The notes: generated by a model not told the origin, from the sequence alone. Positions 27,208-35,051 are shown, counted from the first letter of the stretch. The stretch is DNA of 56,599 nt from Bacillota bacterium (GCA_017534115.1 JAFWDD010000028.1:1-56599); one strand, 5' to 3'. Numbers and translations are program-made.

Positions 27208-27237
27208 TTGGAAAAATCACCATATTTCTGATATAAT
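27208..27237 (+). promoter_or_regulatory. Promoter of the thioesterase-dehydratase operon
   Basis: TTGGAA (27208-27213) and a perfect TATAAT (27232-27237) have 18-base spacing, 40 bases ahead of the start at 27278. Confidence 0.7.
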
Positions 27238-27277: not shown

Positions 27278-27991
27278 ATGTTTACATTAAACAGAAAAGT
27301 CGGATACAGCGCCACATATAATAACGGAAAGATGAAACTGGGAGCTTTTCTGGACTATATGCAGGACTGCGAATGGTTTCAGATAGACAGCGAAAAAACA
27401 TTCAGAGAGTATCTGGATGCCCATAATTACGGCGTTTTTCTGCTTTACAGGCAGGTTGATATAATAAGGATTCCGGAGTATGCGGAAAATATAAGCGTAA
27501 AGACATGGATACATGAGCTTTCCAAGGTGCACGGAGTCAGAAACACAAATATTTATGATGAAGAGGGAAATCCCTGTATTGTAAGCTTCGGATACGGCCC
27601 TTTTGTGAATCTGGAAAAGGGACGGCCCGTAAAGCTTCCGGAAGAGGTTATGAATACTGTGCTGGTTGAGGAAAAATATCCCATGGAGTATTTATCCAGG
27701 AAGATTTCCATACCCAAAGACAGAGAAGGAATTATCTGCGGCGAAGCTGTGGTAGGAAAAAGCTATATAGACAGTTTCAATCATATGAATAACGCAAGAT
27801 ATCCTGAGCTTGCTCTGGAATATATACCGGAAGATTTTGATTTTAACAGAGTAAGAATGGATTATAAAAAGCCTTCTGTTTATGGGGAGAAACTCATTAT
27901 AGTAAAATATGATGAGGAAAACAGCATTAAGATTGTAATTAAAGGCGAGGATGACTCCGTAAAGGGCATTTTCGAGTTTTCTAAATTTTAA
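27278..27991 (+). CDS. Acyl-ACP thioesterase (double hotdog)
   Basis: A 237-residue FatA/FatB-type bacterial acyl-ACP thioesterase. The first hotdog begins GYSATYNNGKMKLGAFLDYMQD; VLLYRQVDI-type and VKTWIHELSKVHGVRNTNIYDEEG strands follow; the second hotdog contains SYIDSFNHMNNARYPELALE, where Asp, Asn and His correspond to the catalytic region. It releases free fatty acids from acyl carrier protein. The 37-base gap to the next gene without a terminator suggests co-transcription with the dehydratase-like genes, an unusual partner. Confidence 0.85.
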   Translation: MFTLNRKVGYSATYNNGKMKLGAFLDYMQDCEWFQIDSEKTFREYLDAHNYGVFLLYRQVDIIRIPEYAENISVKTWIHELSKVHGVRNTNIYDEEGNPCIVSFGYGPFVNLEKGRPVKLPEEVMNTVLVEEKYPMEYLSRKISIPKDREGIICGEAVVGKSYIDSFNHMNNARYPELALEYIPEDFDFNRVRMDYKKPSVYGEKLIIVKYDEENSIKIVIKGEDDSVKGIFEFSKF

Positions 27992-28028
27992 AAGACTGTA
28001 AAAGTTTTGAATTACGAGGATCTGGCAT

Positions 28029-29300
28029 ATGGGAAAAATAGCTGAAAAATTCGGGAAATACGTATCTGATACGGTTCCCAAAAACCCGAAAAAAATAAGA
28101 AAGCTGTTAGGAACGGCGTATTCTTTAAATGGATTTTATATAAAGCATTTTCCGGATAAAACTCTGCTTCCCCATCAGCAGTACAGCTGGGCTGCCTGCA
28201 ACGATTATATGGTGCAGCCATTCAAACATCCTGAAAATTCCGCTCTTGTGAACATTTTCATGCCCTGCGAGCTTTTCCATGCCATAGGTATGAATTTTAT
28301 GTTTGCGGAAGGCCTGGCGGGCTACCTCAACGGCACTCACGCCGAAGGTGTTTTTATCGATGCAGCAGAGGATTACGGAGTTCCCAAAACATTCTGCTCT
28401 TACCACAAAGCCATGATAGGCGCCGCTTTAACCCAGGTTCTGCCCAAACTGAAGCTGGTGGTGAACACAACCCTCATGTGCGATGCCAATAACCTTACAT
28501 TCCGCGCAATAGCCAAAGAATGGGATGTTCCCCATATAACCATAGATGTTCCCTATGGCGAAACGGATTCCAATATAAAATATGTCGCGGATCAGTTAAG
28601 AGATTTCGGAAAAGAGCTGGAAAAAATAACAGGCAGAAAAATCGAGGACTCCAAACTGAAAGAGGCTATGGAGCATGAAAAACGTTCTATGGAAAATCTC
28701 AGGAAGTTTTATGAGATTCTGCCCGAAAAATCACTAATAAATGCCCTTACGCCTGAAATGTTCAAGCTTTTCCTCAGCCATGTTATGATGGGCTCAAAGG
28801 AAGCTGACAGGTATTTTGAAATGCTTGTGAAGGATACAGAGGACGCGCCTCCCAGAGGAAATGAGATCCGTCTTATGTGGGGTCAGGTAATGCCCAACTG
28901 GCAGAAGCCTCTGCGGGATATTTTCAACAGCAGTGAAAAATATCATCTTCTGGCAAGCAGTATGAACTTTGACGCGATAATAGATGTAGATGTGGATAGA
29001 CCCTACGAGACCATGGCGAAGAGGCTTATAGCCAATATGGGCGGAATGCGGGGTACTGACAGACTGAAAAAAATTCTTGAAATGTCCAAAAAGCTCCATG
29101 CGGACGGAGTTATTTACTTCAACCACTGGGGATGCAAAAAAACCTCCGGCATATCTACTCTTGCCAAGAATATGTTTGAGAAAAACGGGCTTCCTACACT
29201 TATCCTTGACGGAGACGGCTGTGACCGGAGAAATGTAAGCGATGAGCAGGTAAAAACGAGAGTTCAGGCGTTTCTGGAGATTTTGGAGGCGGCGAAATGA
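28029..29300 (+). CDS. 2-hydroxyacyl-CoA dehydratase / double-cubane type subunit (HGD-D family)
   Basis: A 423-residue protein of the HgdB/BcrB/FldB superfamily. It has exactly six cysteines (57, 80, 123, 151, 369, 398) within family motifs SWAACNDY, FMPCELFHAIGM, TFCSYHKA, TLMCDANNLTFR, FNHWGCKKTSG and DGDGCDRRN. Classical dehydratase subunits use three Cys for one [4Fe-4S] cluster; six conserved Cys would fit a double-cubane cluster protein, an ATP-driven small-molecule reductase class. Which applies is undecided. Start ATG 28029 follows CGAGGA. Its stop overlaps the next gene, which carries the ATPase activator. Confidence 0.85.
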   Translation: MGKIAEKFGKYVSDTVPKNPKKIRKLLGTAYSLNGFYIKHFPDKTLLPHQQYSWAACNDYMVQPFKHPENSALVNIFMPCELFHAIGMNFMFAEGLAGYLNGTHAEGVFIDAAEDYGVPKTFCSYHKAMIGAALTQVLPKLKLVVNTTLMCDANNLTFRAIAKEWDVPHITIDVPYGETDSNIKYVADQLRDFGKELEKITGRKIEDSKLKEAMEHEKRSMENLRKFYEILPEKSLINALTPEMFKLFLSHVMMGSKEADRYFEMLVKDTEDAPPRGNEIRLMWGQVMPNWQKPLRDIFNSSEKYHLLASSMNFDAIIDVDVDRPYETMAKRLIANMGGMRGTDRLKKILEMSKKLHADGVIYFNHWGCKKTSGISTLAKNMFEKNGLPTLILDGDGCDRRNVSDEQVKTRVQAFLEILEAAK

Positions 29301-30922
29301 TAGATTATATTTGCAAATATTCCCCCATAGAGATTTTTGCCGGCTTCGGCGAAGACGCAAACCTTTTGAATCCCGTTTCCGTGAATTTCGAGAAGGCGGA
29401 TACAATTACCCATAGAAATATATGCAGTTTTTCCAGAGCGGTCATAGAAAAAAGGTTTTCGGAGATGAAAAATCCGGTGATTTTCAGCAAATGCTGCGAC
29501 TCATTAACAGATACGGCGGATGTTCTGGAAAATCTTGGCCAGAAGGTTTTCATATTGGAGCTTCCCCATACAAATACCCATTGCAGTATAAATATATATG
29601 CGGACGAGCTGAAAAGACTTGTCGCGGAGTTAGAGGAGTATTATGGCAGGAAATTCGATGCCGCGAAATTCAGGGGAGCATTTAAAAGTGAGAACAACAG
29701 TGTTCCCGGAGAGCATATAGCGCTGATGGGAGCGCGCATGAGTCCGGAAATTGTTGAATATATAGAAAAAAAGTCTCCGTATCCCATCAGGAACAATTCC
29801 TGTACGAACCTCAGAAGCCTGCCGGAATGTCCAGATACAGAGGACTTTGACGAGCTAATGAACTGGTATGCGAGAGCTCTCATGAACCAGACGCCCTGTA
29901 TGCGAATGGCGGATATTTCCGACAGAAAGAAAATAATAGAAAGCCCTGATTTAAAGGGAATTATATACAGTACAGTAAGCTTTTGCGATTATTACGGCTT
30001 CGAGTATGCGGCGCTTAAGAATCTGGACGTGCCCATGCTGAAGATAGAAACGGATTACACTTTGAATACAGAAGGGCAGATGCTTACAAGACTTGAGGCA
30101 TTTTTTGAGAGTATGAAAGTTGATGAAAAAATGGAAGCAGTTAAAAAAGAAGGCTACACAGCGGGAGTGGACAGCGGTTCCACATCCACAAACGCAGTGA
30201 TTCTGGATAAGGACAAGAATATAGTTTCGTTTTCCGTTGTGCCGACAGGTGTGAAGGTTTCCGACAGTGCGGAAAGAGCTTTGAATGAGGCCATTAAAAA
30301 AGCAGGACTTAATCGAGAGGATATAACGGCTATGGTTTCAACAGGCTATGGCAGAGGCAAAATTGAGGACAGACAGAAGGATGTCACGGAAATTACCTGC
30401 CACGCGAAGGGAGCATATTTCCTCAACAACAATATCCGCACCGTAATAGATATAGGAGGTCAGGACAGCAAGGTCATCCGTATGGATGAAAACGGAAATG
30501 TAATCGACTTTGCCATGAATGACAAATGCGCCGCCGGAACTGGAAGATTCATAGAGATGATGGCCCAGTCTCTCGGCCTTGATATGGACGAAATGAGTAC
30601 AAAAGGTTTTGAATGGAACGAAAATATTGTGATTTCAAGTATGTGTTCCGTTTTTGCCCAGTCCGAGGTGGTTTCCCTTATTGCGTCCGATAAAAAACTG
30701 GAGGACATCGTCCACGGACTCAACAGGTCCGTTGCGGCAAAGGTTCTCGCTCTGGGCAACAGAAACAAGATGCAGACCGAATACATGATGTCCGGCGGAG
30801 TCGCCAAAAACAAGGGCGTAGTAAAGGAAATCGAAAATATGCTGGGCGTTAAGCTCAATGTTCCCGATGAGCCGGAGATTCTTGGCGCACTGGGAGCGGC
30901 TCTTATCGCTGCTGAAATGTGA
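29297..30922 (+). CDS. Fused dehydratase-like subunit and BadF/HgdC-type ATPase activator
   Basis: A 541-residue fusion. Residues 1 to about 278 resemble an HGD-D subunit (THRNICSFSRAVIEKRF, SKCCDSLTDTADVLE, ELPHTNTH, FCDYYGFEYAALKN). Residues about 287-541 are a BcrAD_BadFG/HgdC ATPase: AGVDSGSTSTNAVILD, VSTGYGRGKI, VIDIGGQDSKVI, then Cys411 in NDKCAAGTGRF and Cys450 in SSMCSVFAQSEV. The 39-residue spacing of these cysteines equals that of Cys127 and Cys166 in HgdC, which hold the [4Fe-4S] cluster between two activator protomers. The activator hydrolyses ATP to fire electrons at the partner; here it is tethered to a partner-like domain. The start overlaps the preceding stop (ATGATAG), so translation is coupled. 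Confidence 0.85.
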   Translation: MIDYICKYSPIEIFAGFGEDANLLNPVSVNFEKADTITHRNICSFSRAVIEKRFSEMKNPVIFSKCCDSLTDTADVLENLGQKVFILELPHTNTHCSINIYADELKRLVAELEEYYGRKFDAAKFRGAFKSENNSVPGEHIALMGARMSPEIVEYIEKKSPYPIRNNSCTNLRSLPECPDTEDFDELMNWYARALMNQTPCMRMADISDRKKIIESPDLKGIIYSTVSFCDYYGFEYAALKNLDVPMLKIETDYTLNTEGQMLTRLEAFFESMKVDEKMEAVKKEGYTAGVDSGSTSTNAVILDKDKNIVSFSVVPTGVKVSDSAERALNEAIKKAGLNREDITAMVSTGYGRGKIEDRQKDVTEITCHAKGAYFLNNNIRTVIDIGGQDSKVIRMDENGNVIDFAMNDKCAAGTGRFIEMMAQSLGLDMDEMSTKGFEWNENIVISSMCSVFAQSEVVSLIASDKKLEDIVHGLNRSVAAKVLALGNRNKMQTEYMMSGGVAKNKGVVKEIENMLGVKLNVPDEPEILGALGAALIAAEM

Positions 30923-30979: not shown

Positions 30980-31071
30980 TATTTGAAAGCGGTTTATCAG
31001 GCATTTTGTTTTTGCAGGTAATTAAATCTGAATGAAACTTGATTCACATTTCGTATTTTCCGCTCAAAACC

Positions 31072-31100
31072 TTGCTTGAGAGCCAAAACAATGGTATAAT
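31072..31100 (+). promoter_or_regulatory. Promoter of the metF-metH operon
   Basis: TTGCTT (31072-31077) and a perfect TATAAT (31095-31100) have 17-base spacing. The leader to the metF start at 31129 is short, so there is no room for a SAM riboswitch. Confidence 0.8.
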
Positions 31101-31128
31101 TTTAAAAAATATTTTAGAAGGTTTTATT

Positions 31129-32007
31129 ATGAAAATCAGTGAATTATTAAAAAAAGACACATTATCCCTTTCCTTTGAGGTCTTTCCGCCCAAAACGGAA
31201 TATGCTTTTGAAAGCGTAAAGCACGCCACAGAGGAAATCGCCAAGCTGAAACCTCTTTTCATGAGCGTTACATACGGAGCCGGCGGAGGCACCAGCCAGT
31301 ATACACTTGATATAGCCAAAAATATCAAGGAGCGCTATGGAGTTCCTTCCCTTGCTCATCTGACCTGTGTTTCATCAACAAAGGAAACGGTGCGGGGAAA
31401 AATTACCGATATGAAGGATGCAGGGATCCTCAATGTTATGGCGCTCAGAGGCGATATTCCTGCGGGAATGGAAAACGCGGACCGCAGCAAATGGGACTAC
31501 CGGTACGCTATTCAGCTTGTGAAGGATATTAAGCATTCCGGCGCGGATTTCTGCATTGGCGGAGCCTGCTATCCCGAGATTCATCCCGAAAGTCCCGACC
31601 AGAAATCGGACATCAAATATTTGAAGGAAAAAGTTGACGCGGGCTGTGAATTCCTCACGACCCAGATGTTTTTTGATAACAATCTGCTCTATAATTTCCT
31701 TTACAAGATCCGTGAAGCAGGCATTACGGTTCCTGTTATTCCGGGTATAATGCCCATTACAAACGCTAAACAGGTTGAGCGCGCCGTAAGTCTTTCCGGT
31801 TCATTCATGCCTCAGCGGTTCAAAAGCCTTGTGGATAAATTCGGACATGATCCGTCGGCTATGAAGCAGGCAGGCATTGCATATGCCACAGACCAGATTA
31901 TAGACCTCTACGCCAACGGCATAACAAATGTTCATGTATATTCAATGAACAACCCCGATGTTGCCGCAAAGATACAGAATAATTTATCGGATATACTGGG
32001 CAAATGA
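31129..32007 (+). CDS. metF: Methylenetetrahydrofolate reductase
   Basis: A 292-residue TIM-barrel flavoenzyme. Motifs: LSFEVFPPKTEYAFE, with the catalytic Glu; FMSVTYGAGGGTS; LAHLTCVSST; NVMALRGDIPAG; and EFLTTQMFFDN. It reduces 5,10-methylene-THF to 5-methyl-THF for the downstream methionine synthase. The start is ATG 31129, 7 bases after AGAAGG and downstream of the promoter; an upstream in-frame reading would overlap the promoter. The stop overlaps the next start (ATGA). No fused zinc-domain MetV is visible beside it. Confidence 0.94.
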   Translation: MKISELLKKDTLSLSFEVFPPKTEYAFESVKHATEEIAKLKPLFMSVTYGAGGGTSQYTLDIAKNIKERYGVPSLAHLTCVSSTKETVRGKITDMKDAGILNVMALRGDIPAGMENADRSKWDYRYAIQLVKDIKHSGADFCIGGACYPEIHPESPDQKSDIKYLKEKVDAGCEFLTTQMFFDNNLLYNFLYKIREAGITVPVIPGIMPITNAKQVERAVSLSGSFMPQRFKSLVDKFGHDPSAMKQAGIAYATDQIIDLYANGITNVHVYSMNNPDVAAKIQNNLSDILGK

Positions 32008-32606
32008 GCGGAATAACAGTAAAAATACTGAAAAGGCCGTCTTTTCACGAAAGAGAAGCGCTCCGGTACGCCGGATGTACGGATGCATTGGAGGATATGC
32101 TTGAGCTTTTGGCGAAAACCCTTGAAGAGGCGGACAAAAAACTTGTATATAAGGTGTGTTTCGGTGAGTTTCCCATAAATACAGACGGGGATGTATGTGA
32201 TTTCGGAAGCTTTAAGGTCCGTTCGGGGAATCTTTCCAAAAATCTGGAAGGATGTTCCGCTGTGCTTCTTTTCGCGGCCACAGTAGGTGTGGAAATAGAC
32301 CGTCTTATTGCCAGATACGGCAGGATTTCGCCGTCAAGGGCGGTAATGCTTCAGGCCATAGGAGCGGAGCGCATAGAGGCTCTTTGCGATACGTTCTGCA
32401 GGGAGTACGAAAAGGAAAATTCCGTAAAACTCAAGCCTCGGTTCAGTCCGGGATACGGAGACCTTCCGCTTGAAACACAAAAAGATATATTTGCAGTTCT
32501 GGAATGTCCGTTGAGGATAGGGCTTTCCCTGAACGACAGTCTCCTGATGTCGCCCTCGAAGTCCGTAACGGCTTTCGCGGGAATTATTGATTCTCGGGAG
32601 AAATGA
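32004..32606 (+). CDS. Stand-alone MetH reactivation-domain protein
   Basis: A 200-residue protein related to the C-terminal S-adenosylmethionine-binding activation domain of cobalamin-dependent methionine synthase. The key segment is RFSPGYGDLPLETQKDIF followed by LNDSLLMSPSKSVTAFAG, matching the AdoMet-binding RxSPGY region and the MxPxxSVxG-type end. It sits between metF and a metH that lacks this domain, so it very likely reactivates oxidised cob(II)alamin in trans. Start ATG 32004 overlaps the metF stop. Confidence 0.87.
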   Translation: MSGITVKILKRPSFHEREALRYAGCTDALEDMLELLAKTLEEADKKLVYKVCFGEFPINTDGDVCDFGSFKVRSGNLSKNLEGCSAVLLFAATVGVEIDRLIARYGRISPSRAVMLQAIGAERIEALCDTFCREYEKENSVKLKPRFSPGYGDLPLETQKDIFAVLECPLRIGLSLNDSLLMSPSKSVTAFAGIIDSREK

Positions 32607-32642
32607 ACAATTGATAAAAACATGATGAATTAGGAGTATATT

Positions 32643-35051
32643 ATGGATTTCAGAGAGTATTTAAAAAACAATATTGTTTATCTGGACGGCGGAATGGGGA
32701 CTCTTCTTCAGGAGCGGGGCATTGCGCCCGGCGAGTATCCCGAAAGATGGAATATTACCCACAGCGACGTTATCGTGGATATCCAGAGTTCCTATTATAA
32801 TGCGGGAAGCAATGTTATATGCTGCAACACATTCGGCGCCAATTCTCTGAAATTTGACGATAATGAGCTGGATGCCGTAATAAAGGCGGCTGTTGAAAAC
32901 GCCAAAAAAGCGAGAGAAATAAGTGTCGGAGAGCAGGAAAAATTTATAGCTCTTGATATCGGTCCCACAGGAAAGCTTCTGAAGCCTCTTGGTGATCTGG
33001 GTTTTGAGGACGCGGTGAAGATTTTTGCGCAAATGGTAAAAACCGGCGTGAAATACGGCGTGGACCTGATTATAATCGAAACCATGAACGATGCCTATGA
33101 GACAAAAGCGGCTCTTTTAGCGGCAAAAGAAAACAGTGATTTGCCTGTAATTGTCACCAACGCTTACGGCGAGGATGGAAAACTCATGACAGGAGCGTCT
33201 CCTGCAGCGATGGTGGCTCTTTTGGAAGGAATGGGCGTTGACGCCATGGGAGCAAACTGTTCTCTGGGTCCCAAACAGCTGAGACCTGTTGCTGAGGAAT
33301 TCATAAAATACGCGTCTGTTCCCGTTGTTCTGAAGCCCAACGCAGGACTTCCCAAATCCGTTTGCTGTCAAACGGTATATGATGTAACTCCAGATGAATT
33401 TGTGGAGGAAATGACGGACCTTATAAAGAAAGGCGTTCGTGTGGCCGGAGGATGCTGCGGTACCACGCCCGAATATATAAAGAAGCTTACAGACAGCACA
33501 AAAAGCTTTGCGCCTGTGCCTTTGACGGATAAAAACATTACGATGGCTTCATCATATACAAATGCCGTGATTTTCGGAGATTCTCCCGTGCTTATAGGCG
33601 AGAGAATAAATCCCACAGGCAAAAAGCGTTTCAAACAGGCTCTTATAGAAAATGATATGGACTATATTCTTGCGGAAGGCGTAAACCAGCAGGAAAAAGG
33701 CGTTCATATCCTTGATGTCAATGTTGGAATTCCCGATATTGACGAAGTGAAGATGCTGAAAAACACAGTTTACGAACTGCAGTCAATTATAGATCTGCCT
33801 CTGCAGATAGACACATCCGATGTTTCGGCCATGGAAGCGGCTCTCCGCGTATATAACGGAAAGGCAATGATAAATTCCGTTAACGGAAAAGCCGAAAGTA
33901 TGAATGCGATCTTCCCGTTGGTGAAAAAATACGGCGGACTTGTAGTAGCTCTCACTCTTGACGAAAAGGGTATTCCCGAAACAGCCCAAGGCAGGATCGG
34001 GATTGCGGAAAAGATCCTCAAAAAAGCGGAAGAATACGGTATTTCCAAAAAGGACATAGTGTTCGATACCCTTGCCATGACCATAAGCGCGGACACATCT
34101 GCGGCAAAAACCACGCTGGATTCCCTGAGCTTTATTAAAAATGAACTGGGATGCCACACATCTCTGGGTGTTTCCAATATTTCATTTGGACTGCCCAACA
34201 GAGATGCCGTGAACGGTACATTTTTCGCAATCGCTCTTACAAGAGGTCTTTCTGCGGCGATTATGAATCCCTATTCCGCTGATATGATGAAGACCTACTA
34301 CACATACAGGGCTTTGAACGGTTTGGACGAAAACTGTTCGGACTATATTGGTGCGGCGGACAGCTTTACAGTGACCGTTTCTGCGGCAAGCGCGCCGGCC
34401 GCAAAGAACGCAGAGGAATTCAAATCCGAGCTTCAGCGAGCCGTAATTAAGGGTTTTAAGGATAAAGCCGGAGAGCTTGCCAATGAGCTTCTTAAGACGA
34501 CAGACCCCCTTGAAATCGTGAATAATGAGATAATTCCCGCGCTGAACAAAGTAGGCGAGGGATTTGAGAATAAAACAGTATACCTGCCTCAGCTCCTTAT
34601 GAGCGCGGAGGCGGCAAAAAGCGCGTTTGAAAGCATAAAGTCCCATGCGGCCGCGTCGGGAGACAAGACTTCCGATAAAGGAATATTCGTTCTGGCCACG
34701 GTTCATGGAGACATTCACGATATTGGCAAGAACATCGTGAAGCTTTTGCTTGAAAATTACGGTTTCAATGTGGTGGATATGGGCAAGGATGTACCCATGG
34801 AGGATATTGTGGATAAGGTGGTAAGCCTTCATGCTCCCTTTGTGGGTCTTTCGGCTCTCATGACCACAACGGTTCCTGCCATGGAGAAAAGCATAAAAGC
34901 CCTCAAGGAAAAAGCGCCATGGTGCAAAGTCGTAGTAGGCGGAGCGGTACTCACCCAGGAGTATGCCGATCAGATCGGAGCAGATAAATACGCGAAGGAC
35001 GCAATGGAATCCGTGCGTTACGCAGAAGGAATCATTGCGGAGAATAATTAA
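32643..35051 (+). CDS. metH: Cobalamin-dependent methionine synthase lacking the reactivation domain
   Basis: An 802-residue MetH. Homocysteine domain (1-290) with YLDGGMGTLLQERG, the zinc Cys in GANCSLGP and the GGCCGTTPEY pair. Pterin domain (about 310-570) with LIGERINPTGKKRFKQ, LDVNVGIPDIDE and LPLQIDTSD. B12 cap domain (about 590-670), then the B12-binding domain (about 675-802) with the DxHxxG motif in TVHGDIHDIGKNIVKLL. The activation domain found in E. coli MetH (about 1230 residues) is absent and supplied by the preceding gene. It moves the methyl from 5-methyl-THF to homocysteine. Last gene of the operon. Confidence 0.95.
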   Translation: MDFREYLKNNIVYLDGGMGTLLQERGIAPGEYPERWNITHSDVIVDIQSSYYNAGSNVICCNTFGANSLKFDDNELDAVIKAAVENAKKAREISVGEQEKFIALDIGPTGKLLKPLGDLGFEDAVKIFAQMVKTGVKYGVDLIIIETMNDAYETKAALLAAKENSDLPVIVTNAYGEDGKLMTGASPAAMVALLEGMGVDAMGANCSLGPKQLRPVAEEFIKYASVPVVLKPNAGLPKSVCCQTVYDVTPDEFVEEMTDLIKKGVRVAGGCCGTTPEYIKKLTDSTKSFAPVPLTDKNITMASSYTNAVIFGDSPVLIGERINPTGKKRFKQALIENDMDYILAEGVNQQEKGVHILDVNVGIPDIDEVKMLKNTVYELQSIIDLPLQIDTSDVSAMEAALRVYNGKAMINSVNGKAESMNAIFPLVKKYGGLVVALTLDEKGIPETAQGRIGIAEKILKKAEEYGISKKDIVFDTLAMTISADTSAAKTTLDSLSFIKNELGCHTSLGVSNISFGLPNRDAVNGTFFAIALTRGLSAAIMNPYSADMMKTYYTYRALNGLDENCSDYIGAADSFTVTVSAASAPAAKNAEEFKSELQRAVIKGFKDKAGELANELLKTTDPLEIVNNEIIPALNKVGEGFENKTVYLPQLLMSAEAAKSAFESIKSHAAASGDKTSDKGIFVLATVHGDIHDIGKNIVKLLLENYGFNVVDMGKDVPMEDIVDKVVSLHAPFVGLSALMTTTVPAMEKSIKALKEKAPWCKVVVGGAVLTQEYADQIGADKYAKDAMESVRYAEGIIAENN

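Follow-up and report, generated by a model that had tools for sequence, protein, structure and literature searches.

Which enzyme is built when an ATP-driven activator is fused to the protein that it serves, and which of the two subunits holds the unusual metal cluster that such systems can carry? This question is raised by a 56,599-nucleotide stretch of DNA from a Bacillota bacterium (GCA_017534115.1 JAFWDD010000028.1:1-56599; hereafter the window). Three open reading frames (ORFs) were found there at the coordinates given in the original prediction, encoding an acyl-acyl carrier protein (ACP) thioesterase, a 423-residue protein (P423) and a 541-residue protein (P541). That prediction, made from the DNA alone, had described a self-contained, tethered ATP-driven reductase or dehydratase with a double-cubane cluster in P423, possibly tied to fatty acid release. 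Our analysis indicates that P423 and P541 rather probably constitute a tethered ATP-driven net reductase, a heterodimer with the cluster layout of class I benzoyl-coenzyme A (CoA) reductase.

Conservation of the P423-P541 pair

When genome contigs were scanned with the N-terminal domain of P541, 18 loci emerged, distributed over Syntrophaceticus schinkii, Syntrophomonadaceae, Peptococcaceae, Lachnospiraceae, Anaerotignum, Clostridium fessum, Blautia, Coriobacteriaceae, Eggerthellaceae, Atopobiaceae and Treponema. At all 18 a P423 homologue lies directly upstream of the P541 homologue. Searches of whole genomes detected the family in 23 of the 392 genomes from the order; for the phylum, where only strong matches were counted, the figure was about 28 of 398 genomes. 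The pair is carried by about 6–7% of the sampled genomes of the phylum, and it also occurs in Coriobacteriia and Treponema.

From the regions read around the search matches, 51 intact adjacent pairs were aligned, and the residue counts given below refer to this alignment. The gene for P423 (alpha) and the gene for P541 (beta fused to activator) adjoin in every intact locus, with an in-frame ATGA overlap in about half of the 51 pairs. Additionally, the distances among alpha proteins and among beta proteins correlate at 0.92, as compared to a maximum of 0.13 with shuffled labels. With 51 intact adjacent pairs, conservation is well beyond chance, and the conserved unit is P423 plus P541 alone. 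The predicted fusion of an HgdB-like to an HgdC-like protein is therefore kept in other genomes, which upholds the description of a self-contained, tethered system. The pair represents a real and widespread variant of the benzoyl-CoA reductase/double-cubane cluster protein (DCCP) kind, and no description of the fused form was found in the literature searched, although key DCCP papers outside that set may mention it.

Predicted cysteine ligands in the two subunits

As predicted, P423 contains exactly six cysteines, at positions 57, 80, 123, 151, 369 and 398, which had been proposed to hold a double cubane. However, only Cys123, Cys151 and Cys369 are invariant among the 51 orthologues, and these three correspond to an ordinary [4Fe-4S] set (Table 1). 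The remaining positions, C57, C80 and C398, are occupied by cysteine in 37%, 57% and 43% of orthologues. Thus, the double cubane does not sit in P423, and this outcome is one that the original prediction had itself named as refuting its claim. In BzdO of class I benzoyl-CoA reductase, Cys95, Cys128 and Cys380 bind the catalytic [4Fe-4S]-OH2 cluster (PMC11971306), and these are the positions with which the three invariant cysteines of P423 align. A profile of 17 P423 proteins gave its best scores with BzdO and HadB. The AlphaFold2 (AF2) model of P423, with a predicted local distance difference test score (pLDDT) of 91.8, matches HadB (Z 38.3), BzdO (35.8) and MbdO (34.0), with DCCP lower at 29. 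Cys369 lies within an HWGCK motif in which H366 is found in 46 and W367 in 42 of the 51 sequences.

Based on the alignment, the active site of P423 would include E94, Y125, N154 and N/S75 as counterparts of BzdO residues. Tyr125, at the position of the thioester-oxygen binder Tyr97 of BzdO, is conserved, as are D152 and N154.

The N-terminal domain of P541 carries the six cysteines that the prediction had overlooked. The [8Fe-9S] double cubane of BzdN, the partner of BzdO, is bound by Cys36, Cys73, Cys100, Cys263, Cys293 and Cys327 (PMC11971306), and P541 has an invariant cysteine at each of these positions. A double-cubane site thus remains predicted for the system, but is relocated from P423 to P541. 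A profile of 16 P541 N-terminal domains matched DCCP best (92.7 bits), and residues 1–274 of the AF2 model (pLDDT 85.5) matched DCCP (Z 24.4), BzdN (23.8) and HadC (23.6). Both proteins score far under the 350-bit cut-off of NF040772, the DCCP family model (P541, 88; P423, 83). A seventh invariant cysteine, Cys66 (29492–29494), stands just before a predicted ligand, where DCCP has TC and BzdN has SC.

DCCP and its activator DCCP-R (6ENO, 7YYL) are the closest system to the P541 N-terminal domain in sequence and fold, with six double-cubane cysteines in one HGD-D chain (in P541 as judged by the BzdN ligand positions) and service by an ATP-driven activator. This similarity would fit an enzyme made of P541 alone. 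In such an enzyme, a DCCP-like homodimer would work under its own activator dimer, whose two-fold symmetry it would share, and would reduce a small molecule, with P423 as a separate or regulatory partner. We consider this quite unlikely. DCCP is encoded by one gene, forms homodimers and has DCCP-R as a protein of its own, whereas here the activator is fused and every intact pair includes an alpha-type second subunit with three conserved cysteines. P423 not only adjoins P541 throughout but co-diverges with it, and is a homologue of catalytic alpha subunits; the known alpha and beta types make heterodimers.

The C-terminal part of P541 was described as a full activator, and this was borne out. 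In addition to a PF06050 match at residues 1–273, P541 scores 261 bits with TIGR00241 (cut-off 125) and 203 bits with PF01869. Residues 285–541 match MbdQ (Z 37.2), HgdC (36.1) and HadI (35.0), with 42–44% identity to these three proteins. Cys411 and Cys450 are both present in all 51 sequences, and Cys368 is also invariant. The tether between the two parts varies in length, and the distance from C230 to C411 ranges over 181–238 residues.

Table 1. Features of the P423-P541 operon, in coordinates of the window
Feature	Position	Strand	Details
Acyl-ACP thioesterase ORF	27278..27991	+	237 residues; PF01643 38.4 bits; 37 bases upstream of P423
P423, alpha subunit (HGD-D protein of HadB/BzdO type; predicted to carry the catalytic [4Fe-4S]-OH2 cluster)	28029..29300	+	423 residues; full-length PF06050 245 bits
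Glu94, counterpart of BzdO acid/base Glu65	28308..28310	+	51/51; aligned with FPE motif of HadB/MbdO
Cys123, predicted [4Fe-4S] ligand (BzdO Cys95)	28395..28397	+	Cys in 50/51, gap in remaining row; profile alignment
Cys151, predicted [4Fe-4S] ligand (BzdO Cys128)	28479..28481	+	51/51; profile alignment
Cys369, predicted [4Fe-4S] ligand (BzdO Cys380), HWGCK motif	29133..29135	+	51/51; profile alignment
P541, beta subunit fused to activator	29297..30922	+	541 residues; PF06050, PF01869, TIGR00241
Short HGD-D domain without middle helical domain, P541 residues 1-273	29297..30115	+	PF06050 match in two stretches
Cys6, predicted double-cubane ligand, distal (BzdN Cys36)	29312..29314	+	51/51; profile alignment
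Cys43, predicted double-cubane ligand, proximal (BzdN Cys73)	29423..29425	+	51/51; profile alignment
Cys66-Cys67; Cys67 predicted ligand (BzdN Cys100), Cys66 extra invariant Cys	29492..29497	+	both 51/51
Cys169, predicted double-cubane ligand, distal (BzdN Cys263)	29801..29803	+	51/51; profile alignment
Cys201, predicted double-cubane ligand, distal (BzdN Cys293), PCxRM motif	29897..29899	+	51/51; alignment
Cys230, predicted double-cubane ligand, proximal (BzdN Cys327), FCD motif	29984..29986	+	51/51; alignment
Flexible tether, residues about 274-286	30116..30154	+	pLDDT <50 at 276-281; length differs between species
Activator (ASKHA ATPase) domain, residues 287-541	30155..30919	+	fold matches in text
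Cys411, predicted intersubunit [4Fe-4S] ligand (HgdC Cys127)	30527..30529	+	51/51; aligned with HgdC
Cys450, predicted intersubunit [4Fe-4S] ligand (HgdC Cys166)	30644..30646	+	51/51; aligned with HgdC
Intrinsic terminator of operon, 3' of P541	30947..30974	+	11-pair stem, 6-base loop, then T-run; strong

Proposed electron path and choice of reaction

We propose that P423 and the N-terminal domain of P541 would together make up a heterodimer belonging to the benzoyl-CoA reductase class I/2-hydroxyacyl-CoA dehydratase superfamily. In the alpha subunit, three cysteines would bind a [4Fe-4S] cluster and leave one site free (for water) at the substrate pocket, and beta would hold a double cubane acting as an electron store, the role for which benzoyl-CoA reductase retains this cluster (PMC11971306). 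The activator domains of two P541 chains would pair around a shared [4Fe-4S] cluster, and ATP hydrolysis there would push electrons of low potential into the double cubane and from it to alpha, the site of substrate reduction. In its own genome P541 is accompanied by one protein of ~1420 residues with two activator domains, but by no stand-alone activator and no further HGD-D gene. Most simply, therefore, two P541 chains would supply the activator dimer and the overall assembly would be (alpha-beta)2.

Activators of dehydratases act once and then leave, whereas those of benzoyl-CoA reductases are permanent subunits. The tether would make the activator such a permanent subunit, as would suit a net reductase in which every turnover draws on ATP-driven electrons. 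A different outcome, which we judge unlikely, is that the activator is built into a 2-hydroxyacyl-CoA dehydratase, where one ATP-driven electron primes many turnovers. HadBC with HadI and HgdAB with HgdC do share the alpha fold, the three cysteines and an HGD-D fold in both subunits. HadB is the best structural match of alpha, and the Pfam and NCBIfam matches fall in the dehydratase family. However, a primed reaction gains little from an activator that is tethered and stoichiometric, and neither a CoA-transferase nor an acyl-CoA dehydrogenase recurs beside the pair. Additionally, dehydratases have lost the second (distal) sub-cluster, leaving [4Fe-5S] in beta (PMC11971306), whereas P541 keeps all three distal ligands, C6, C169 and C201, as invariant residues and has its activator fused. 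Thus, six retained ligands and a fused activator suggest net reduction rather than dehydration, and of the two reactions first offered for this system the reductase is favoured.

The class I benzoyl-CoA reductases BzdNOPQ and MbdONQP resemble the pair in a three-cysteine [4Fe-4S] alpha subunit, six double-cubane ligands in beta, and an activator that is a permanent part; counterparts of Glu65 and Tyr97 are also present in P423. They differ in having two separate activator subunits, whereas a single type is fused to beta here. Four further observations weigh against a net reductase of class I layout. First, beta is without the middle helical domain present in both BzdN and DCCP (the C67–C169 spacing is 102–122 residues in 51/51 P541 proteins versus 163 in BzdN). 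Second, two BzdO residues are replaced in 51/51 P423 proteins, the acid/base His131 by Asn154 and Trp46 by Asn/Ser75. Third, no CoA-pathway gene recurs near the pair over 61 loci, nor do aromatic genes recur around it, so a CoA-ester substrate is unsupported by context. Fourth, unfused forms exist at two loci, indicating that tethering is not essential everywhere.

Because of the changes at His131 and Trp46, the chemistry of P423 need not be benzoyl-CoA-like. Together with the HWGCK motif around C369, these changes make it probable, as far as the aligned residues tell, that the pocket at the missing sub-cluster is lined unlike that of benzoyl-CoA reductase. We tentatively raise the possibility of a distinct third class within the benzoyl-CoA reductase/dehydratase superfamily, which would be marked by a tethered activator, a trimmed beta subunit, a seventh cysteine and a new substrate, perhaps not a CoA ester.

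Very few proteins, to our knowledge, have a known double-cubane cluster. The pair described here is common in anaerobes, groups of the animal gut included, and only two genes need to be expressed. Since its ATP-driven injector is tied to the predicted double-cubane subunit, the electron path becomes accessible to direct study, and the pair hints at an unassigned low-potential reduction carried out by fermenting bacteria.

Gene layout, neighbours and unfused versions

The genes of the window are close or overlapping as first described, P541 beginning within an ATGA shared with the end of P423 and P423 following shortly after the thioesterase gene. The single terminator was also confirmed (Table 1). 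The single promoter is another matter: the candidate at 27208–27237 is a 10/12 consensus match, and the region holds 19 such matches where 11.5 are expected, so this claim is unproven.

The closeness and shared strand of the three genes would suit one fatty-acid-linked pathway of thioesterase, P423 and P541. Conservation of this linkage was not found, since a thioesterase lies near the pair in the window only and at 0 of about 60 other loci. In addition, the window thioesterase is only 22–29% identical to copies in its own bacterial family. The coupling was therefore rejected, the idea of fatty acid release falls with it, and we give a joint pathway next to no credence.

Apart from synteny among close relatives and generic families like the ABC ATPases, the pair had no recurrent neighbour over the 61 loci searched. 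In the window, MetF-like, MetH-activation-like and MetH-like genes follow the pair immediately downstream (31039–35051), and the same genes adjoin it in a single further genome (L045/L183). Such neighbours could mean that the pair serves to activate or repair another cofactor by reduction, such as the corrinoid of the adjacent MetH, rather than acting on a free metabolite. This is very unlikely given that the link appears in no further locus of about 60, and we set it aside, treating it as chance or local synteny.

Several loci carry the pair in altered form. In a Bacillota locus (L179:7431-10498), three separate genes are found in the order beta (320 residues), alpha (421 residues) and activator; this beta is already short and has serine at the position of Cys66. 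This set is likely a relic of the state before fusion. At L165:7822-9446, in a single-contig genome, beta and activator occupy separate overlapping frames while a similar protein from L168 is fused, possibly reflecting gene fission, a frameshift error or recoding. From the separate genes of L179 and the split frames of L165, the fusion looks derived from a three-gene set, although we infer the direction. At L178:6718-7656, the fused gene is interrupted by a transposase-like ORF, and L177 and L152 also have broken copies.

Activator domains within a longer chain are also found in the 1400-residue acyl-CoA dehydratase activase-related proteins. Unlike P541, these place the activators first (two domains plus more) and show ~33% activator identity. 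In the genome of the window, a second acyl-ACP thioesterase gene adjoins the gene for the 1400-residue double-activator protein (L196:6270-12108, contig C61). This neighbourhood was seen in 4/5 regions within the same bacterial family and 0/7 outside it.

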